Part shown: positions 5,801 to 31,721 of the stretch, piece after piece
Position numbering within the stretch: position 1 is the stretch's first letter
Layout of the letters: each line of letters opens with the position of its first letter
Origin: Sipunculus nudus
Lineage: Eukaryota; Annelida; Sipuncula; Golfingiida; Sipunculidae
Assembly (NCBI GenBank): GCA_026874595.1
Contig: CM049306.1
Location: 46,626,019 to 46,690,018, forward strand
DNA length: 64,000 nt
Direction of reading: 5' to 3'
Position numbers and translations under genes: made by a program
Notes under the pieces: generated by a model
The model's database searches: none
What the model saw: the letters and a program-made list of their open reading frames with translations, nothing else
What the model was told of the DNA's origin: nothing

Positions 5801-8800
5801 AGACATATGCTGAGGTACCCCATTATTGCTCTATGGACTATGGGAACAAAACATGGTGCAAGCAGGTGAATTCTTTTTTCACTTGTCACAATATGCAGAA
5901 ATTTACCAGCTTATATAGAAATTATAACAATTTATATTTGATCAACACAAAATTGAACACTTTTCAATACCTTTAAGAAGTACTTTTTAAAGTATTTGTG
6001 CCATAGCACAAATTAAAAATATTACAATACAATACAAAAGATGAGGTTATAATTTACAAAACATTTTATCCACAATAAAAGGGGGCAGTGAATACATTTT
6101 TTTTATGGTCTAACTTGTGTATCCTATTAGTTACTCCTAGCCAGCCAACCTTTACTTAAATATCTGGATGTACCAGGTTCCTACTGGAGACAGTGACACG
6201 GTGAAACATGCAAACTGTCATCTCTCTAGTCTCATTATGACGTTACTGCTCACTGTCAGGGCTAGAGCAAACCTAACTTCTATAGATACACCTTAAAACT
6301 GTTTAAAGGGTCCATGCATTTTTTGATAAAATATTCCCCCCCCCCCCAAAGTTCTCCATGATGATTTTTAAAAATCAGAGGAACATTATTTGACCTATTT
6401 CCATAAATAGGATGGGCGTAACATTCTGCTTAATGTCAGAGTTCAAATGCTTGTTATTATAGTGTCAGCCTAACATTCTGGTTGATGTCAGAGTTCAAAT
6501 GCTTGTTACCATTGTTGTGTTGGTATGTGGGTGACTAACCACACAGTTAACAGCACAGCGGTTTACATGGTTTTATTCCAACCCCAAGCCATGGCCGCCA
6601 TCATGGGCCTACATATGTAGTGGACTACTTCGCCACCAGGGGGCGTTATATGTGGGTGCTAAGCTCCCATCATGAGACCATATTAAGAGCATGTTTGAGT
6701 ATATAACATCCTCCTGTTCACAAAAGAAAATTAAAGCAGAATTATACAAGTATGAAATATGGATATTGAAGCTTTTAACTTTTAAATAAACCATTAAATT
6801 TGTTCAATGAGTCTCTCTGGTTTCTTAAAACTACAGTTTGATTTCCTCATGGTTTGGTATGCCACTTTACTGATGTCACTGAACTGTATATTGTCATTAA
6901 ACCTTACATTTTATTGTTCAATAACTTTCTGAGCAACAGGCTCAGGTTCACAGGAAGTATCATGAGAACTAAACAAGAGTCTAGTTGTTGCATAAGGGCT
7001 TATCTCCTTCAGGTATCTCCTGTTTCATCGAATTACATTTCATTTGGGGTTTCTACCATGTATGAGCGGGGCTCATCACACAAAGATTTCACGGTACCAG
7101 GTGTCCACAGTGCCTGACCTGGTTGTTCCTGAATTATTACTTTCATTTGGCAACAAATTAGGCAGCTCTGCTTCGACATGCATATTATACCGCTGTTGGG
7201 AATCTTGCTTCTTGGCAGAGAGCCTTTCACATACAAAGACATCAGTTGGTTTGGGGTCATTTTTTACAGGTAGATTTAACCTTACTTTTCTGTTGTACAA
7301 AATTTCAGCTGGACTCGGCAGACCAGTCTCTAGTGGTGTTGTGCGCAAGCACAGCAATGCAAGCTTTGGATCAGTGTTGCTTTGTTTAGCTTTTTTAAGG
7401 ACAGGTTTTACTACACCTACCATCCTTTCACAAAATCCATTACTTTGTGGGTATTTGGGACCAGATGTAATGTGTTCAAAGTCTTAGTCCAGGGCAAAGT
7501 TACGAAATTCGGCACTGCTGTACTGAGGCCAATTGTCGGTCATGAGCCTTTTGGGGATGCCATGTACTGACCACAAGTCCTTTAAGAATCTGATCACTTC
7601 AGAGCTAGTTTGGGTTGTCAGGGCTCTAACAAATGGCATCTTACTGAAATGGACTTCGACGAGCACATATGTATCCATGTAGATCGAACAAATTGCTTGA
7701 CAGGATTTCCCATGGCTGGGAAGGTACTACATGTGGCTGCATTGGCTCTTTCACTGTACTGCGTGCGTTCTGTAGGCAGATGATGCAGTCTTGGCATAGC
7801 TTCTCTATCTCTGACATCATGATCGGCCAATATACGCAACGGTGCCTAAGTAATTCCCAGGTGACCAGCATGTATTCTTTCAAGAAACTCTTTGCACATT
7901 GAGCTGGGGATGATTATCCTATTACCCGTGTACAGTATCCTGTTTTCCACTGAAATATGACCAATAGCCTCTGGCTATCTTAGGAGTTATCTTTACGTTT
8001 TCTGGCCAACCAATCAAGACTTGTTTTTGTAATGCAGATAGCTCAGTGTCTCCATTTACAGCATCATGTATTCTGCTCATCTTGCCTGTTGAAATCTGTA
8101 CCATATGTATGGTGCACTCTAGTTTAAGTTCTGGGCCCTTTGATGGCTCAACTCGAGACAGGTAATCAGCGTACATAACTTTAGGGCCTGGTCTCCAAGT
8201 TACTGTGGCATCATAAGGTTGTATACAAAGGAGCATCCTTTGCAAGTGTGGAGGTGCTTCACTAAGCTGCATCTTTTGTTGGATATTTTCCAGTGGTTTG
8301 TGGTCACTGTGGTTGTTACATGTTTTCCATATATGTATGAATGGAATTTTTCAACTCCGAAGACAACTTCTAGTAGCTCCTGTTTGATATTAGCATATCG
8401 TGTTTCTGCTGGAGAGAGGGCTTTTGACGCAAAAGCGATCGATTTGTCATCCTGTATCAGTGTGGTGCCTATCCCACTGATTATGCATCTACCTCGATGT
8501 CTGTTGGTTTATGGGGGTCAAAGAATCTTAGCAGCATGTTCTCATGTACAGCTTCTTTCAGAGCTTCAAAAGCTGTATTGTGTTCTGCATAACACATCCA
8601 TTCAGTGTCCTTTTTAAGCAGCTGACGGAGTGTATGCCTCTTGTCTGACAGGCGTGGTATAAACTGAGCAAGGAGCTGGACCACACCTAAGATACTTTTA
8701 TAAGTCTTTGACGGAATGAGTTGGAGGAGTATGTCATCACATTTTTTTTTATCTGGGCTCATGCCTTTATCTGACCAGATCAGACCAAAGAATTCAATGC

Positions 8801-11800
8801 TTGGCTGGCAAACATGACATTTTTCAAGTCTAAGAATCAGTCCATGCTCTTTAGCAGCTGTCATGAATCTATGCAGGGCTTCATCATGTTCAGCTTCATC
8901 TTTTCTGTGAACACAAATGTTGTCTGCAATTCCTAAAATTCCTGACCTAGCTTTGTGTATTATATTGTCCATGTGTCTCTGAAAGTCGTTTTGAGACACT
9001 GACAAGCCAAACGGAAGTCTCAGGAATCTCATTTTACCCAGGGGGCATTAAAATGTGCATAGTTTACTGCTTTGCTCATCTAGCAATTTACCCCAGTAAC
9101 AATTTTTTTGGTTGAATTTAGTGCAAATCTTGGATCCACTGAACTGATCACTTATTTCTTTAAGCATTGGCGTTTTTTAGTATGTGCGCTCTAAAGCTTC
9201 GTTAAGCGCCTTTGGTTCAAGGCATATACATAATTCTCCATTTGCCTTGAGCAAAAAACGAGGGAATTCACCCAGTCAGTAGCTGCATCATCAGCACAAT
9301 TTGCAATAATACCCATTTTTTCCATCTCAATGGGCGTTTCTTCTATCTTTTGTTTGAGCAGAATGGGATATCTACGCATACGGGTGACTACAGGTTTTGC
9401 GTCATTCTTCAGTTCTATGTCAAACTGGGTTGGTAAGTGTCCACAGCTTTTAAAACACTCTGGGTATTGGTGCTGTAGCACATCTCAGTCAGGGATTGGC
9501 AGTTTAGGATCAGAGCGCTGACTCTGTTTCTCTGCAGAAGTTGCGAATATGTTATGACTGCTTGTTACTTGAATAATGCCTAGTTTTTCTGTAGCATTGC
9601 AAGACAAAATAGAAGGGCCCTCTGTATTGCATACATAGAACCTTAATAAAATCAACTCAGAATCTTCAAACTGCACTCACATGTCAAATGTACCAAACTA
9701 TGGTATGTCTGTGCTATTGACTACAGTAAGCTTTACATCACTTGGTATCACAATTGATTTTTGGACATTTTGATCTGGGTACATTTGCTTTAGAAAACTT
9801 AACGGTATTATGTTGCCATTTGACCCTGTATCTGATTTAACTCTGAGTGTCACTTTTCTCTGTACTCCAGGGGGTTTAACACTGAGCTTAGCCATGATTG
9901 ATTGTCTCTCGCATTCAATTTGATCAATATTGACCAATATTCTGCCACAGTCTAATGGCTGGTTTTCTGTTTCCGTAGGTATATCAACAGTGTTTACTGC
10001 ACAATCTCTGCTTCTGGATCGTGGCCTTCGGCTATGTCTGTTAAAATGTCTTTGCAGTTTGTTGTGTGGTTTTACACTACTTGTATCATTTAGCTTGCAA
10101 ACAGCAGCAAAATGGTTCATTTTGTGGGACTTTGCACACTTCTTTCCGTAAGCTGGGCATTCCTGTGGCTGGTGTTTTGAACCAAAATACCTGCATTTAC
10201 CCTGTTGTGGTCTACTTGCAATAGAATCACCTTTAATGCCTGCGCTTAAGGTATTTGTGTTTCTCAGTGTGGCCTGAAATGTCTGAGCTTATTTTATTGC
10301 CTCAGCTAGTGAGAGTTCATTTCCCTTAGCTATGGGGGATTTTCTTTCCTCGGGCCACACAATTCCTTTAATCAGCTGGAATGTGATCATCTCATCATGT
10401 GTCTCGGCATTAGAAAATTCATAGGTCTTGGCTTTGGCTTCAAGTTGGCATATAAAACTTTCCTCTGGTTCCCCTTCTTTCTAAATGAGAGTGGCTAACT
10501 CTAGGCAGGCGACCCATTTATTTGGATTTCCAACTAGGTGTGCTTTGAATTGGTCAAACACATTATCTGGGTTTTCTTTCTCAGGGGCTGTCATAGCCCA
10601 AGTGTTCCATAGTTCACGACCCTGCGACCCCGATGATAACAATATGTAGAGCCACTGGTGAACTGTAGTTACTTCATTGATTACAAAGTAACTGGTCAAG
10701 AATTCATGCCTTACTGGAGCCATCCAGTCTAATATGGGCATCTGAACTCCGAGGGCAGCCATTTTGATAAAAGTGCACGTGAAACAAAGATCAAAACGTT
10801 ATTGTTTACACAATTGTGCCGTTACTCCTAAGAGGCTAGGACAACAGTCACTGCACTGATAAGAAATCAACCTGAATTTAGTGCCAGTGTTATATCATAA
10901 CAATAGTATCAGCAAAGAGCTTTACACTTAATTTACAGTTATGTAAATGAACCCTGACCTGTGATGTCTTGCCTGTGTAGAGGGCTGTGTAAGGCTTGCC
11001 TAGTGCTGCCAAATGGGCTGAAATTTCACCCATAATGCCATCTGTAATACATATACAAAAATAAACCTGCAATGATTTAATTTTGGCTTTAAACAAAATG
11101 TTTTTTAAGTGGTTATGATCAACTTTTGTTTATTAAGAATAAAATGCAAATCCATACATCTAATCTTTACTCAGTTTCATTCATTTGTGGTGACATGTGA
11201 TAATGATTTACTTTAACTGACACACAGTGAAGAAGATTACATACAGAGATTAAAGACTCATTTGCATTCTTACCTCTAAATAAGGTAAAATTTCAAACCT
11301 TTCAAACAATTATCATTGTTATCACAGTAAATTGCAGCATGTGAGAGCATTTATGAAAAAAAAATAAATTCATAGCACAGGTATTCAAAAAGAAATTGTA
11401 GGATTTAGAGCAGGTAAAAAATTGTGCAGATGTCATGGCATATCCCAATCACAGAAAATCAAAGGCATTTTTAGGAAATTGCAGTGCCTATGGAGTGGTC
11501 ACACAACATAGTGGACAGCTACTCACTATCCAGAGTAAACAACTGTCAGGTTCCAGTACCTTACCCCTGTGCCATACATGCCAGTCACAGAAATTGTCAG
11601 GTTCCAGTACCTTACCCCTGTGCCAAACATGCCAGTCACAGAAATTGTCAGGTTCCAGTACCATACCCCTGTGCCATACATGCCAGTCACAGAAATTGCC
11701 GGGAAGTTTTATTTCATTCCATGCTGAGGTATGCTACAATATATTGTGGCTGTTTACAACTGTCTACAGAAAAGATTTAATTGTAGAACATCACAGCTAT

Positions 11801-24022: not shown

Positions 24023-24293
24023 GGCAATAAATAAAACTCGGAAGTCGGAAGTCGGAAGCCTTCGGAAGTCGGAAGCCGTTATAATTTTTGATATAATGTT
24101 AAAAATAACGATCATACCAACACTTTTTCGTGTTAAAATGGAAGATATAGACCCCCTTTGCAAAACCAGAAAGTCGCACAAACGTATATTCCCATATATG
24201 AAAATCAAAGCATTTTTAATGCGTCGGAAGCCTCTCGGAAGTCATCCTGAGGTGACAGATGATGTTCAAAATGCATAAAACTCGGAAGTCAAG
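24023..24293 (+). repeat. Left terminal inverted repeat with CGGAAG clusters
   Basis: Pairs with 26023-26284 in inverted orientation. It contains eight CGGAAG words: five in the first 60 bases, two near 24225-24240 and one at 24283. Confidence 0.9.
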
Positions 24294-25802
24294 ACCATAT
24301 AGCAAGAACCAAAAATGACACAGAAAAAGTCTGGCATAATTCCAAATTTAATTTAAGTTATATTTATGTATTTGAATGAAACCATAATGTATATTACTAA
24401 TTAAACATAATAATATATAAAATAGAAAAAATAAATGTTGAAATATACATTCAAATGTAATACATTATATATCATATCGCGACGTAATATTTTAATATGG
24501 AATGTTATTTCTAATAAATATAATATAAAAGCATTTAAAATTTCGTAATTTTATCAAAATGGTGTGATAATTTTTTTCCTTATATAACAAAATAGATAAG
24601 AATATTTTATCATATAAAAAAGTTAAGTATTCTACATTAATTTGTATTATAATATTTTTACATAATAATATTCAAATATTTGATAAATACATAAATTTGT
24701 ATATTAATGTAAAAAACTAACAAATTATCAAACTGTCGCATCCTTGCAGGAACTGGTAAAACCGTAAGAAAAGTCCATTAAGTTTTGTATTAATAAAACT
24801 ATTCTTCTTTATCCATTAGGGTGCTATATACATATAAATGAAACTAATTTTTATCCATGCATTAAGTTGCTTTATATGGAACGCATATAACTCTCCAATG
24901 CTTGTTGAATACTGATCACCCAACGTATCAGGAAACATTTTTAGTTCATTGCACAGACAATTTGCATAAACCATTATAAAAACACTTCCAAAATATTTCG
25001 AAAATTTAAAAATATGTAAAACTGCATAACTGTGAAAGATTGAAAAAAAAGCATGTGATGTTGCAAAAATATTGATATAAATTATAACAGTATCTTTATA
25101 TTTCAATTTTAGCTTAATCAAAATAATTTATGTAGGAAGGATATTACATTATTATATGATTCCAGAGATCATTTTTAAATTTTACACTTTAAAGCCACAT
25201 ACTGTTTCGGAAACATTTTAAGAACAGTTTCATAAAATGTTTGTGCTAACTGGGGATCAGGCAATAAGAACAATGAAACGCGTGTGCCTTTAAGGTAACG
25301 ACATAAACTATCTTTAGATAATTATCAGTTACAACTAATAGGAGGAATCGCCATCTAAATTCTTTTCTGCCATCTGTTATCCTTTTTATTTGTTAGAATA
25401 ACTTCCTAGGTGGAGGAGATAAATTATCACATACATGAATGGATATATAAATAATCATATTATATACAATTTAATCATTTCATATATTAATTTATATTGA
25501 CTTATATAATTTGGTCTTACTTAATATAGGAATATTGATTATAATGTACTTTTTTAATATTTATTTTATCATATAATATAATTTAATATCAAATTATATC
25601 GATGTTGAATGAATATATAATTATATCGTCATCTGTGTTATTTAACACATTATGTATACATTTTATTATACTTGTATTATGTAATTATATTTTGCATCAT
25701 ATATGTATTTGTTCAATGAAAAAAATAGAGAATACCAAAACAAATCTGTATTGTATTATACTTTTTTTTTATTTATAATTATAGTATTTTATATTCATGT
25801 TT

Positions 25803-25980
25803 TATATTTTAATATGAATTTATATATTATGTTGTTAGTTATATACATTATGATTTTATTCAAATACATTAATATCACTAAAATTAATTTTTGGGTTAAT
25901 GCATATATTATTTTGTTAGTTATATACATTATGATTTTATTCAAATACATTAACATTACCTAAATTAATATTTGGGTTGA
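25803..25980. repeat. 90-bp tandem duplication inside the promoter element
   Basis: The segment TTGTTAGTTATATACATTAT, then GATTTTATTCAAATACATTA, occurs twice about 84-90 bp apart, followed each time by an AATTAATWTTTGGGTT stretch. Confidence 0.85.
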
Positions 25981-26022
25981 TGCAAGACCCTTTTTGTGTC
26001 GTTGTCGATTGGTATACTGTGG

Positions 26023-26284
26023 CTTGACTTCCGAGTTTTATGCATTTTGAGCATCATCAGGATGACTTCCGAGAGGCTTCCGACGCATTAATTATGCTTA
26101 AATTTTCATATATATCAATATATATCTTTGAAACTTTCTCGTATGAAAAAGGGTGTCTATATCTTCCGTTTTAACACAAAAACTTGTCGATTTGTTCGTT
26201 ATTTTAAAAATTATACTAAAATATAAAACGGCTTCCGACTTCCGAGAGCTTCCGACTTCCGACTTCCGAGTTTTATTTATTGCC
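26023..26284 (-). repeat. Right terminal inverted repeat with CTTCCG clusters
   Basis: Inverted partner of 24023-24293, with eight CTTCCG words in mirrored positions. Its outer end lies 9 bp of target duplication plus 57 bp from the RPS23 start codon. Confidence 0.9.
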
Positions 26285-26324
26285 TCTATTCTCGGAGGTT
26301 ATCGGAGGAAGTCACGTGGCCGGT

Positions 26325-26350
26325 CTCTTCCGCTCGAACCGACCACCATC
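26325..26350 (+). promoter_or_regulatory. RPS23 transcription start and 5' TOP tract (predicted)
   Basis: CTCTTCC followed by GCTC lies 20-26 bases before the ATG. Ribosomal-protein mRNAs begin with a C followed by a pyrimidine tract (5' TOP) and have very short leaders, so transcription most likely starts at C26325. No TATA box is visible, as usual for this class. Confidence 0.6.
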
Positions 26351-26354
26351 ATGG
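26351..26354 (+). CDS. RPS23: RPS23 exon 1 coding part (ATGG)
   Basis: Supplies Met and the first base of the Gly codon. I found no other ATGG|GT upstream of exon 2 with a pyrimidine leader. An RNA read crossing 26354 to 28717 would settle it. Confidence 0.75.
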
Positions 26355-29300
26355 GTACGCAAGCCATGTGGTCCTCAACAATTTTATCAATATTATTGCC
26401 TTATCTGAGTTCTAATTATATATTTAACTAATATTCAAATAGAGTTAATACATTTGAAGATTCTTAAACTACCATCAGCAGCATAGTATTTATTTTAAAA
26501 ACAAAAATGACTGTGGCTTTTGTAATGTGGCGATTCCTTCTAACTCAGTTGAAATATCGGACTGGGGTTGATTGCATCTGCACTGTGGCTTCTTGTGCAA
26601 GTCGAAATATACCTTTATGCAAGTTATGCGAATTATTAAAAGAACTGAGTTCAGTTTACGTAAATTCAGTGCAGTTTACGTAAATTCAGTGATAAAAGTC
26701 CATGAAGCTTGACACAAACTGATTACGCATGATCCTATGCCTAGAAGGGATAAACAAACTCGTCTAAAGTACATTATATTTATTATAGTTTATACATATC
26801 GAGCCGTCTGACCCGATTCGGCTGTATTATTTTTTATGAAAATTATCTTTAAAAAAAACAGGTGCACAGCAGGTTACAGGACTAGGTATATCAGTTAATT
26901 TTTCAAAATAAAAATTTACATCAAAGAAATGCCCGGCAAGGTAGATTTTTGCTTCAGGACTATTACTAGTATTAGTACTATGACTACTATTACTATTGTA
27001 TTACGTAGCTGTAACCTTACTCTTAATTTAATAAAAAATACTGATAGGTGGAATTATATTCCCACTTCATTAACTTGTTATAACATTAAAGGGGCCCAAT
27101 CACGTACAAAGCATGTTGAGTTTATACAAAATATAGGTTCTTCCTTTAAAATAAATCTGTACCTGCTAAAATATTGCCTTGAAATCATTAGCTTACACCT
27201 GTAAACGAGTGTTAAAATCATTGGATCAGGTGCAATCGCAGATGTCAACATAAATACTGCGTTTGGCGGTGCGCATCATGCAGCCCCAACTCATTTCAAT
27301 CAGGAGATACCTGACTGACTTGGCCCAAAAAATGTAATACATGTTTCTGCTGGCTGAAACAATGTGTTGCCCCTCATAATCAGACCTCCAATTACGCGGC
27401 CTTGATATGATAAACAGACACAGGTGGACTGTTTTAACCAACACGCAGGGCCATAACAATGTGTTTAACAGCTGTATGGGAGGAACTGAGACTGTGTGCC
27501 GGTCTGGTTTTGCTGGGAAACTTTTTTATAGAGCAAAACTGAACTTGTAGTGTGAAAGACTAGACATAATATGTCTCCTGATTATGTCCCTTTAAGACAT
27601 TTTATCATTGCCATGTTCATATCTCCAGAACAATTAGAATATGTCACCAACAAGTTGTGAGCCAAGCAAGGAACACCCTTCTTGTTTTAATACACTAGCT
27701 TTAAGGTGGGCTTCATTGGGTTGGTATCCGTTTTGCTAGGGACAGGAACATGGCTATGATAAAAGTCTCAATGTCATAATATTTATCAGGGGACAAAGTG
27801 GGAGCGTAATATGAACTTTTATTTAATAAGAGTATGACCACCTTAGAATCACATTTCGCTCACACTCCGTGGACGCATAGACATATGCTGCTATGCTTTC
27901 AGTGTTAACACAAAATGTGGCAACATTGGCTCTGAGGCGGTCCTTGCTGGGCTGTGTTTTGCTAGAGACGGGCACATGGCTACAATTAGTCTTTAATGTC
28001 ATGATTGATCAATGAAGCAGGAACAAATTACAAAATAGGTGCATAATATGAACTATTATTTAATAAGAGTATAAAATCCTGAAACCCAGTAGTGGCTCTG
28101 TGGAATACGCAGACCTGGGGCTTCAGTTATCTAGTGGACAGAGCACACAAAACAGGTGTCTGACCGAGTGTATTGGGTGCCTGTTTGGAGTGTCAAATGA
28201 ATTCGCCAGTGGACATGCAGGCCATCATTCCAGCCAGCAGTTATTCATATTAAATAAAAGGTCATCTTATACCTGTTTATTCTTGCTCATCCACTGATTA
28301 TGGCTACATTTTGCTTACAGGTATTAGCAGCTTTATTGTCTGTTGTAGGTTAAATTATGGTTAAGTGCTAAACCCTTAAAAAATACAAATAGATGGTTTT
28401 ATAAATGATACCAACAACTTGCACTCTGTGCCACAGATACTTTACTAAATGTGTTGGGTTACCATTAGGGTGGCATTGGTAAGCACCTTCCGGGCATGAG
28501 CCTGTATTAAAGTGACAGGTATCCTAATCAAGGAAGGTTACATCAAATCCCTTGTTTAATCCCGGGGACCTCCATGTAATGTGGTATTCCGGTTCATGCC
28601 TTGGGAACAGGTTTTGAACTTTTCTAGATTATTACTTGTACATTAATTATACTATTCATGCAAATTTCCAAATATGAGTCGCCCACTTGACCTGATATTG
28701 TTTCCTCTATTTTCAGGAAAGCCTAGGGGTCTTAGAACAGCTCGCAAACTTAGGAGCCACCGTCGTGACCAGAAATGGCACGATAAGGATTACAAGAAAT
28801 CTCACTTGGGAACACGTTGGAAGGCTAACCCCTTCGCTGGTGCCTCTCATGCCAAAGGAATCGTTCTTGAGAAAGTGTGAGTAATTAAGTCAAACAAGGC
28901 TTTTAAGATGTGTTGGACACAAGTCCAAAAAATGGCAATAAAAAAATTTTTCCTACAATTGTTTTTTAAATATCCTTATATTATTTTACTACCGTTTCGA
29001 ATGTTTTATTAAAAATTCTTTCTTTTTACAGTATATACATCCTTTTTCTGAAATAATAGTGACTAAGGATTATTAAGTAATGACTGGATTTTATAACACA
29101 AAAAGTGTTGCCTTGCCAGACGTAAGGGACTTTGATATTTTTGCTAAGCATGTTGGACCTTCCGGGCATGAGCCTGTTTAAAAATAGCAGGTATTCCTAA
29201 TCAAGGAAGGTAACATTAAATCCCTTGTTTAATCCCAGGGGCCTTTGTGCAGTGAGGTACTCTGGTTCATGCCTTGGGTACATGTAAGAATTAAGATCAT

Positions 29301-31721
29301 TTGGACAATTTCAGTAGAATCTACTGATATTAAAAGAAATAATTATCTGTAATTTAGAGATTTTTTTTATGAATGGAATTTTTATTTTGCTTCATTCTTC
29401 TGTCAGCTGATGCATTTCTCTTAAAATAGAAGATACAGGATAATGCCATTGAGACATATTTATAGGAGCAGCAAAAGAAAATGCTACCATTTGATATTTC
29501 TGGAAGACCATTAATGTACGTCAAGGACAATGTATCTTTAAACAAATGAAAATCTGTTGGTAGTATAATATTACCTGGTTGTTACTCTGTTGTTTTAGTG
29601 GTGTTGAGGCCAAGCAGCCTAACTCTGCCATCCGTAAGTGTGTCAGGGTGCAGTTGATCAAGAATGGCAAGAAAATCACAGCTTTTGTCCCCAGAGATGG
29701 TTGCTTGAACTACGTTGAAGTAAGTAAACCAGTAATGTGTATCAACATGTAAATTTTTTTATAACTATAGCTTTGTTGACAAAATATTATAAAAAGGGTG
29801 ATATTATCTCTCACATAAAGCACAGTTCAAGTTGTCAGTATTCTGTTTAAGATCACAGGTTTTTGTGATCAGGGCAGAGTAATGCTGCAAAAGGCAATTT
29901 TTTATGTAAATGAAAGGTCATTATGTATAACACAAGCAAACACAGTATTGTGAATATCATGTTATTATACTGTTAAAGTTTGAATCTGGTATACAAAATC
30001 CATTCTTTCAGTGTTAGGGTGCCTTTCCATACATGTGGATTTTCACCTGCATGCGGAGTGCCCCTTCCATATGTGCGGGTCCCAGCATGTAGGAGACCCG
30101 TTAGTTTGGATAAATGCATGCACTAATAATCCTAATTTCTCAAATTGTAGTGCATGTCCTTAAAAAAATATTGAGTGTAAACATTTATACTAACTGATGA
30201 GGCAGATTGAAGCGGATTAATATCATATCTCACCAGCCAGGCTTAAATGGCGGCTATTTCCTGTCACACTCTATCTTGAGCTGGCCCTGGGCCGCATCTC
30301 AATGAAGACCCGTGGTATATTTTTTTATGCAGTCGAATAGCTTTATCAACTGCTTCTTTTCAAAGACGAGGACATGTGCCTGCTATTGATATAACATTAA
30401 GCATCCGCAGGTACTTGTTTGATTTCAACCATGTGGGACATGCGTGGGGGCCGCATGTATGGAAAGACAATGTTTAAAACTGCAGCACAAGTGCCCTGTG
30501 AGGGCTTCATTCAGCTGTTTGTTGACTAAATCCCAGAATTTTTCTGATGTTCAACTAAATTTGGATTTGACAAATTATTGGAACAAAGCCTTATATATCA
30601 TAACCTTAAATACCAAGGTTTCATATAGAATGCTTAAAAAAGGGTCTTTATTGCAGTGAATTATAATAAAGCAGTATTATGAAAAATTGTAACCTTCCGG
30701 GCATGAGCCTGAATTAACATGACAGGTATCCTAATCAAGGAAGGTTACAGCAAATCCCTTGTTTAATCCCGGGGACCTCCATGTAATGGGGTATTCCGGT
30801 TCATGCCTTGGGAACAAATATTACTGTGCTGTCATGTTGTAAGGCAAGAAGTTAAAAGATTCTCATTAGTTAAGATCTTGCAGTTCTGTCATAATATTTT
30901 GTATCATTTGAATTTGCTAAATTGTTAATGCTTGTTAGCTTTACCAGAAACCCTGATGTCTGTACCGTCAGACATTAATAGTTGACCATTGTTTGTACAT
31001 ATTGAGTCCAAAAAGAATATGCAGGTTCAGTTCAGTTATGGTTCCTTTGAAATAATTAGACTTTTGATGCTTCCTTGTAGGGCTGAAAGGAGTACTCGAG
31101 TCTGGGTAATACTTACCGAGTACTCGAGTCCAAAATTTGGACTCGAGTACTCGTGTTTGTACATGTTAGCATGCATATCTGAATATTACTGCAAATTTAC
31201 CGGCAGTCTGTAGGCCTATTTATTCATTATCATAGCCTGGCATATGGCCCTAAACATATGCTAGTCAAATTAACACAGGTCTTGTTATGACATATATCTG
31301 TTTCTTCGTTGGGATAAAGTTAAATCGTCACAAAGTCAAATATATGCATATTTTGCATCGGTAAACAGATGTCCGTTTTATCTTACAGCGTTGCCATGGT
31401 AACGGGTACTCGAATCCAAAAATTTGTACCCGTTTCAGCCCTACTTCCTTGTACTCATTACACTACGCTTTATGTGCTCTGATTTTTAATTTTACCCTGT
31501 GCACTTGCAGGCGCATGCCTATGTAGTAGGTGATATTTATCTGCTTAAACATTTTGAATTCTTGTATGTTTCAGGAAAACGATGAAGTCCTTGTAGCTGG
31601 ATTTGGTAGAAAGGGCCATGCCGTCGGTGATATCCCAGGTGTCAGGTTCAAGGTCGTCAAAGTGGCCAACACATCCCTGTGGGCGTTGTACAAGGAGAAG
31701 AAGGAGAGACCGAGGTCTTAA
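26351..31721 (+). CDS. RPS23: RPS23, 40S ribosomal protein S23 (uS12)
   Basis: Protein uS12 of the decoding centre of the small ribosomal subunit. The exons 26351-26354, 28717-28876, 29599-29719 and 31575-31721 join into 432 nt, 143 residues plus stop, the exact eukaryotic length. The sequence [62 protein letters not shown] and KKERPRS is nearly identical to known animal S23. The PNSAIRK motif contains the proline that is hydroxylated in other eukaryotes. Exon 1 is only ATGG and was placed at 26351 from phase, the flanking pyrimidine leader and an ACCATCATGG context; its donor GTACGC is weak. Each of the three introns carries one copy of an H/ACA snoRNA, so this is also a snoRNA host gene. 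Confidence 0.95.
26355..28484. other. RPS23 intron 1, 5' part
   Basis: Holds a short direct repeat (TCAGTTTACGTAAATTCAGT type, 26650-26692), the MITE at 27086-27595, and two diverged copies of a 125-bp segment containing TTTTGCTAGRGACRGG (near 27740 and 27960). No exon was recognised. Confidence 0.65.
27086..27595. mobile_element. TTAA-flanked MITE, copy 1
   Basis: Starts TTAAAGGGGCCCAATCAC and ends ATTATGTCCCTTTAA; the ends are imperfect inverted repeats and include TTAA, the target of piggyBac- and Kolobok-type elements. A related copy is at 36090-36591. No coding capacity. Confidence 0.75.
28485..28612 (+). ncRNA. H/ACA-box snoRNA, copy 1 (RPS23 intron 1)
   Basis: 128 nt. Hairpin 1 is closed by ACCTTCC/GGAAGGT; the H box is ACATCA (28540-28545); hairpin 2 is closed by TCCC/GGGA; the ACA box is at 28607-28609 with three bases after it. 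In hairpin 2 the upper stem CCGG/CCGG is flanked by TTTAATC (left) and TTCATGC (right), and the right pocket starts 14 nt before ACA, the canonical spacing. These loops pair with 28S rRNA GCATGAA-UG-GATTAA, predicting pseudouridine at the U of UG. Hairpin 1 gives no convincing guide pocket. It ends 104 nt before exon 2. Confidence 0.9.
28717..28876 (+). CDS. RPS23: RPS23 exon 2
   Basis: Residues 2-55, [20 protein letters not shown] through [11 protein letters not shown], between TTTTCAG and AAAGT|GTGAGT. Confidence 0.96.
28877..29156. other. RPS23 intron 2, 5' part
   Basis: AT-rich; nothing recognised before the snoRNA. The part after the snoRNA (29286-29598) also shows nothing. Confidence 0.5.
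29157..29285 (+). ncRNA. H/ACA-box snoRNA, copy 2 (RPS23 intron 2)
   Basis: 129 nt, same structure. The H box is ACATTA (29213-29218) and the ACA box 29280-29282. The upper stem of hairpin 2 changed from CCGG/CCGG to CCAG/CTGG, a compensated pair change, while the guide loops TTTAATC and TTCATGC are unchanged. It is the most diverged copy, especially in the apical loops. Confidence 0.9.
29599..29719 (+). CDS. RPS23: RPS23 exon 3
   Basis: [15 protein letters not shown] through GCLNYVE, between TTTTAG and GAA|GTAAGT. Confidence 0.96.
30020..30469. mobile_element. Candidate MITE with 16-bp inverted ends
   Basis: TGCCTTTCCATACATG at 30020-30035 is inverted at 30454-30469 (CATGTATGGAAAGACA, one mismatch). 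The sequence between them is locally GC-richer than the intron. I found no clear target duplication, so the class is open. Confidence 0.55.
30692..30819 (+). ncRNA. H/ACA-box snoRNA, copy 3 (RPS23 intron 3)
   Basis: 128 nt. The H box is ACAGCA (30747-30752) and the ACA box 30814-30816. Both closing stems and both guide loops are as in copy 1, to which it is closest. It lies 755 nt before exon 4, a distance partly due to the hAT MITE inserted between them. Confidence 0.9.
31078..31443. mobile_element. hAT-type MITE with perfect 8-bp target duplication
   Basis: 366 bp, starting TAGGGCTGAAA and ending TTTCAGCCCTA. The flanks are CTTCCTTG at 31070-31077 and 31444-31451. An 8-bp duplication and TAGGG-type ends are hallmarks of hAT elements. 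The interior has ACTCGAGTACTCG palindromes and no coding frame. Confidence 0.9.
31575..31721 (+). CDS. RPS23: RPS23 exon 4 and stop
   Basis: [19 protein letters not shown] through KKERPRS and TAA, after acceptor TTTCAG. Confidence 0.97.

Follow-up and report, generated by a model that had tools for sequence, protein, structure and literature searches.

The recurrence of one snoRNA in several introns of a single host gene has been described in chicken, where one snoRNA occupies three introns of RPS3 (introns 4, 5 and 6) and another introns 2, 5 and 6 of RPL4, and where intragenic duplication has been proposed as the main route of snoRNA expansion (PMC2653536). Introns of 27 Drosophila ribosomal-protein genes house snoRNAs (PMC2246290), and the mitochondrial ribosomal-protein gene MRPL3 has gained SNORA58 in one of its introns (PMC3511168). 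The locus considered here resembles the chicken RPS3 (U15-type) and RPL4 sets in that one snoRNA recurs in several introns of one ribosomal-protein host, an arrangement termed intragenic or cis-duplication, but the chicken sets are box C/D, unlike the blocks in RPS23; the H/ACA multi-intron case among the entries examined in that paper is NAP1L4, introns 7 and 9 (PMC2653536). RPS23 does not occur in the main text of the same paper (PMC2653536), and among the records returned by our literature searches, one of which used a term ('H ACA') that may miss the printed form 'H/ACA', we found no report of RPS23 as an H/ACA host. The earlier note on this DNA knew of no description of the arrangement for RPS23; for that gene none was found in these sources, but three-intron copying is already in print for chicken RPS3 and RPL4 (PMC2653536). 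RPS23 as host, this particular set of copies and the guide variant described below look new, whereas the copying of one snoRNA within one host gene is known.

We analysed a window of 64,000 nucleotides from Sipunculus nudus, to which the positions below refer. With a probability that we put at about 0.87, each RPS23 intron in it encodes the same H/ACA guide, with its 3' pocket on the equivalent of human 28S U3797, the copies having arisen by duplication within the gene and being held by purifying selection. The window contains a complete RPS23 gene (26351-31721, + strand), laid out as follows.

26325-26331, + strand: pyrimidine tract CTCTTCC, about 20 bases upstream of the RPS23 ATG, which we take to be a TOP-like motif (predicted only)
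26351-26354, + strand: coding part of RPS23 exon 1, ATGG, with a GT donor directly after it (putative splice site)
26355-28716, + strand: RPS23 intron 1, holding putative snoRNA copy 1
28717-28876, + strand: RPS23 exon 2
28877-29598, + strand: RPS23 intron 2, holding putative snoRNA copy 2
29599-29719, + strand: RPS23 exon 3
29720-31574, + strand: RPS23 intron 3, holding putative snoRNA copy 3
31575-31721, + strand: RPS23 exon 4, including the stop codon

The joined coding sequence of 432 nt gives a product of 143 amino acids, which scores 162 bits against Pfam Ribosom_S12_S23 and 187.9 bits against NCBIfam uS12_E_A, and aligns end to end with solved S23 chains (best E 2.2e-86). The splicing pattern, with its three introns, is a prediction read from the DNA letters; for exon 1, which a stricter donor pattern misses, a search of the window found ATGGGT to be unique between 18680 and 28716.

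The surroundings of the gene hold several other elements. An inverted-ended element at 24023-26284, with 228-nt arms that are 84% complementary and further inner arms, stops 40 nt upstream of the TOP-like tract. Within intron 3, the stretches 30020-30469 and 31077-31444 each have 19-nt inverted ends (89%), and the second of them contains a perfect 18-nt inverted pair with one base between. Remains of an LTR-type retroelement lie on the - strand at 7076-10288, with an RVT_1 match of 42.5 bits at 8481-9047; the gag-like and integrase-like frames nearby were named by eye, and the frame at 9698-10288 has no Pfam match.

The three introns share one kind of block, of 128-129 nt, present once in each (3/3).

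28485-28612, + strand: putative H/ACA snoRNA copy 1, RPS23 intron 1
29157-29285, + strand: putative H/ACA snoRNA copy 2, RPS23 intron 2, the most diverged copy
30692-30819, + strand: putative H/ACA snoRNA copy 3, RPS23 intron 3

Global identity is 94.5% between copies 1 and 3, 84.5% between copies 1 and 2, and 82.2% between copies 2 and 3, and the similarity stops at the predicted RNA ends. In the six comparisons of 100-nt flanks, the observed identity was reached by 26 to 191 of 200 shuffles, so that the flanks, being no closer than shuffled DNA, are not detectably related. A 19-nt motif from the 3' end has three matches in the window at up to 3 mismatches (shuffled mean 0.06), and a covariance model built from the blocks recovers the three copies at 153-162 bits, the next four window matches having E values of 0.3-2.4 and two of them lying antisense to copies. 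The earlier claim of one block of about 128 nt in every RPS23 intron is thus borne out by the coordinates together with the ATGG of exon 1, as is, by the flank comparison, its description of the surrounding intron DNA as unrelated.

Each block carries the boxes expected of an H/ACA RNA, and a two-hairpin plan can be laid over all three.

28540-28545, + strand: H box of copy 1, ACATCA
29213-29218, + strand: H box of copy 2, ACATTA
30747-30752, + strand: H box of copy 3, ACAGCA
28607-28609, + strand: ACA box of copy 1
29280-29282, + strand: ACA box of copy 2
30814-30816, + strand: ACA box of copy 3
28552-28561, + strand: left guide strand of the 3' pocket, copy 1, of which the 6 nt nearest the stem would pair 3' of the target U
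28593-28599, + strand: right guide strand of the 3' pocket, copy 1, 7 nt that would pair 5' of the target U

The H boxes match ANANNA in 3/3 copies, and in all three a trinucleotide, variable at two positions, follows the ACA before the similarity fades at what is predicted to be the 3' end. In H/ACA RNAs the guide pocket places the target uridine about 14-16 nt from the box. The 3' hairpin agrees with this spacing, with 14 nt from the upper stem to the ACA in every copy, and the 5' pocket lies outside it, at 20, 21 and 20 nt. Differences among the copies are distributed unevenly: none of the 20 positions of the 3' pocket varies, 1/22 in the 5' pocket, 0/14 in the 5' lower stem, 1/8 in the 3' lower stem and 0/3 in the ACA, with 2/10 and 5/21 in the 5' and 3' upper stems, 5/9 and 5/10 in the terminal loops, 3/9 in the hinge and 2/3 in the tail. 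The variation between copies is located at sites where a guide RNA tolerates change. The two-hairpin plan with its H box and an ACA three bases from the end, as the earlier note had drawn it, is consistent with the boxes found in all three copies, and its reading as an H/ACA snoRNA is supported by boxes, spacing, pocket conservation and the predicted rRNA target; the blocks are most likely genuine H/ACA snoRNA copies, functional by prediction.

The same comparison bears on whether all three copies are functional. One or two of them might be functional and the remainder decaying, and certain features point this way: copy 2 stands furthest from the others (82-85% identity) and has lost one pair of a lower stem (U-U at columns 65/123), in copy 3 the 5' upper stem lacks the pair that closes its loop, and in copy 1 the 3' upper stem lacks its tip pair. 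Yet the 3' pocket strands and both boxes are intact in 3/3 copies, and copy 2 itself carries a compensated change from G-C to A-U, and we therefore regard decay as unlikely, though it deserves to be kept in mind. Under the preferred reading of three maintained guides, the proportion of paired cells is 96.2% in the proposed structure, compared with 26.3-60.3% when one side is slid. Covariation amounts to one compensated pair and four pairs that vary on one side only, a result equalled by 173/500 shuffles; since there are only three sequences and shuffles score equally, it was dropped as proof of structure.

Folding of the naked RNA gives a more complicated picture. The unconstrained minimum-energy fold merges both hairpins, gaining 5.3-8.0 kcal/mol in stability over the two-hairpin plan, and the fold z-scores are modest (-1.63, -2.44 and -2.34, for stretches at most 1 base off the blocks). 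Folded alone, the 3' hairpin shows its pocket, with a lone G-C pair spanning it, and the 5' hairpin has its pocket partly closed. The duplex across the two hairpins is matched in strength by only 3, 35 and 4 of 1000 shuffles; this pairing is strong because the left strand of the 5' pocket holds GCAUGA, the core of the rRNA sequence bound by the 3' pocket. In all three blocks the 5' hairpin strand GGCAUGAG imitates the target core of the rRNA and complements the 3' guide strand. This likeness possibly arose by chance. One could also speculate that it constitutes a built-in target mimic, by which the naked RNA would be masked by its own 5' hairpin and opened by snoRNP proteins only, with a copy in each intron of the single host gene; we consider this very doubtful.

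What the preferred guide would modify can be predicted from its 3' pocket, which can form 7+6 bp on the two sides of the 28S uridine that corresponds to human U3797. SNORA48 is assigned to human 28S-3797 (PMC6466398), and U3797 is a 2'-O-methylated pseudouridine listed with snoRA48 (PMC5597630). The rRNA stretch used for the prediction, L002, came from a scan of prokaryotic contigs with a 28S stretch, which returned five contigs; by Rfam L002 is eukaryotic LSU (1778.7 bits), and the other four have no match at gathering level. A scan confined to the 823 U positions of this LSU stretch, L002, placed this site first at 13 bp, the next reaching 9 with a one-pair arm, and 13 bp was attained by 8/2000 shuffled guides. 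The register of the top site corresponds to human 3797, as 16/16 of the other modified human positions compared (15/15 before C3680 was added) show the expected letter, the best other register giving 11 (PMC5597630). It is thus predicted that the 3' pocket guides the U3797 equivalent. No target for the 5' pocket stood out in L002, where 211, 109, 154 and 100 of 300 shuffled guides did equally well in four stem registers. Patterns for 28S and for the snoRNA had 0 matches each in viral contigs.

The other four contigs (L001, L003, L005 and L004) join a 28S stretch to non-rRNA DNA at TAGCCAAATGCC, and the first three come from an assembly titled endosymbiont of Escarpia laminata. Escarpia laminata is a tubeworm, and the junctions presumably resemble R2-type insertions. 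These contigs are apparently eukaryotic R2-type retroelement junctions contaminating bacterial assemblies.

The guide and the rRNA appear to differ together at one base. At the human SLCO5A1 site, a primer in a stretch of vertebrate type reads GAUGAAC after the target U (PMC4915809), and a grass 25S primer reads GAUUAAC (PMC3292489). The five fetched contigs also have GAUUAAC after the target U, having been retrieved with a pattern that already contained the U by which this form differs from GAUGAAC. Human 28S, we assume, reads GAUGAAC there as well. The left arm of the window guide forms 6 pairs with GAUUAA and 3 with GAUGAA, and that of the SNORA48 consensus forms 10 contiguous pairs with GAUGAA and 3 with GAUUAA; in the six pairing left-strand bases the two guides have one difference, at the base matching the G-to-U difference in the rRNA. 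Farther along, the window strand contains an additional U, and pairing does not continue at the two positions that follow the six. In the organism's own genome, a broken 28S relic (L010 and L011, on C4) reads GCATGAATGGATTAAC / GCATGAATGGATTAACCAG, the U form that fits the guide; it was found by an LSU query, independent of the U base, in 3 weak places of which L010 and L011 overlap. The relics of this region (L009-L011, C4 near 20.55 Mb) are broken and interspersed with other DNA, and nearby parts match LSU by Rfam at 81.2 and 71.2 bits, probably one region counted twice. An exact 24-base pattern for the intact 28S site had 0 matches in the organism's assembly. To judge from these letters, guide and rRNA would have changed together relative to the SNORA48/vertebrate form.

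Assignment to a known family is less clear. At gathering threshold no Rfam family matched anywhere in the window, blocks included, and a search of 26300-28490 with E up to 1 gave none either; the matches that follow come from a relaxed threshold. Copy 2 aligns end to end with SNORA48 (26.9 bits, E 0.013), its lowest-E Rfam match, below the gathering score of 50 bits for that family (RF00554), among whose relaxed matches copies 1 and 3 are absent. The family call is not specific, because copy 2 also weakly matches SNORA40 and SNORA49. With SNORA48 (ACA48) the block shares the predicted target uridine, an identical 7-nt right guide strand and a similar left strand; it differs by the one compensating guide base, by the extra U lower on its left strand, and by its host, RPS23 as against SENP3-EIF4A1, which is listed for human SNORA48. 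The block may thus be called SNORA48-like in its predicted target, with membership not proven because no block attains the Rfam gathering score. SNORA35 (RF00566) aligns end to end with all three copies (27.3 bits for copy 3, and 23.8 and 18.5 bits), under its gathering score of 39; its pocket letters differ in the alignment, for which reason it was rejected as a functional relative.

It is conceivable that the blocks act as structured intronic RNA in the control of RPS23 splicing, their likeness to a snoRNA being secondary: the element is present in all three introns, and an intronic snoRNA can affect splicing of its host, as SNORD2 does in EIF4A2 (PMC10324135). The canonically placed H and ACA boxes, the 14 nt between pocket and ACA and the fit of the pocket to a known pseudouridylation site argue against this, as does the position of the 3' splice site, which lies at widely differing distances behind the block (104, 313 and 755 nt in the three introns), and we hold it to be highly improbable.

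In favour of guide copies duplicated within RPS23, a search of the organism's own assembly (1.43 Gb, 153 contigs) with a 216-nt query (copy 1 and its 3' flank) gave three matches only, at 100%, 96% and 84%, all of them the RPS23 copies. The search scores the best candidates, skips very common words, and scored 3/3 candidates here; more diverged relatives outside RPS23 may exist. Scattering of the block through the genome as an ordinary repeat, the outcome named beforehand as contrary to the snoRNA reading, was sought in this assembly and not found. Of the marks of snoRNA retroposons (poly(A) tail, target-site duplication, scattered copies), none was seen at the blocks, though tail and duplication may have decayed if the insertions are old: the 40 nt downstream contain no tract of 7 A, and no word shared by the flanks exceeds 5 nt. 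Because A-run, repeated flank word and scattered copies are all lacking, the blocks are unlikely to stem from a retroposon that is recent or still active. That the blocks are a snoRNA-derived mobile repeat dispersed through the genome, to which the sharp stop of similarity at the RNA ends, the unrelated flanks and the closeness of the non-adjacent copies 1 and 3 might point, is the least credible reading of all, its already small odds having shrunk further because the own-assembly search found the RPS23 places alone (n=3), and the missing A-runs and flank words speak against it too. The same search and the reading of the 28S relic raised our estimate for the preferred reading from 0.85 to its present value. 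As to how the copies arose, old DNA duplications with decayed flanks and old RNA-level insertions both fit the blocks; duplication in cis, as first proposed, is the simplest history, but copying at the RNA level is also compatible. The closeness of copies 1 and 3, which lie in non-adjacent introns, points to gene conversion or to a later round of copying.

In the mechanism that we envisage, RPS23 pre-mRNA would be transcribed from a TOP-type promoter and spliced, and the debranched introns would, in line with established snoRNA biology, be cut back by exonucleases to a protein-protected RNA of about 128 nt. The proteins that bind stable H/ACA RNAs are dyskerin, NHP2, NOP10 and GAR1. The 3' hairpin pocket would then pair 7+6 bp at the U3797 equivalent, where dyskerin would make pseudouridine, while the 5' hairpin, with no target beyond chance in the scanned LSU stretch, is probably a scaffold. 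Duplication within the gene may have given the three copies, and purifying selection would hold guide, boxes and stems, so that one RPS23 transcript could yield up to three guides. The locus would thus supply a guide, apparently undescribed, for the 28S position modified by SNORA48 in humans, and, with every intron of a small ribosomal-protein gene filled, it may offer a clean setting in which to ask whether selection for dosage acts on the number of snoRNA copies.
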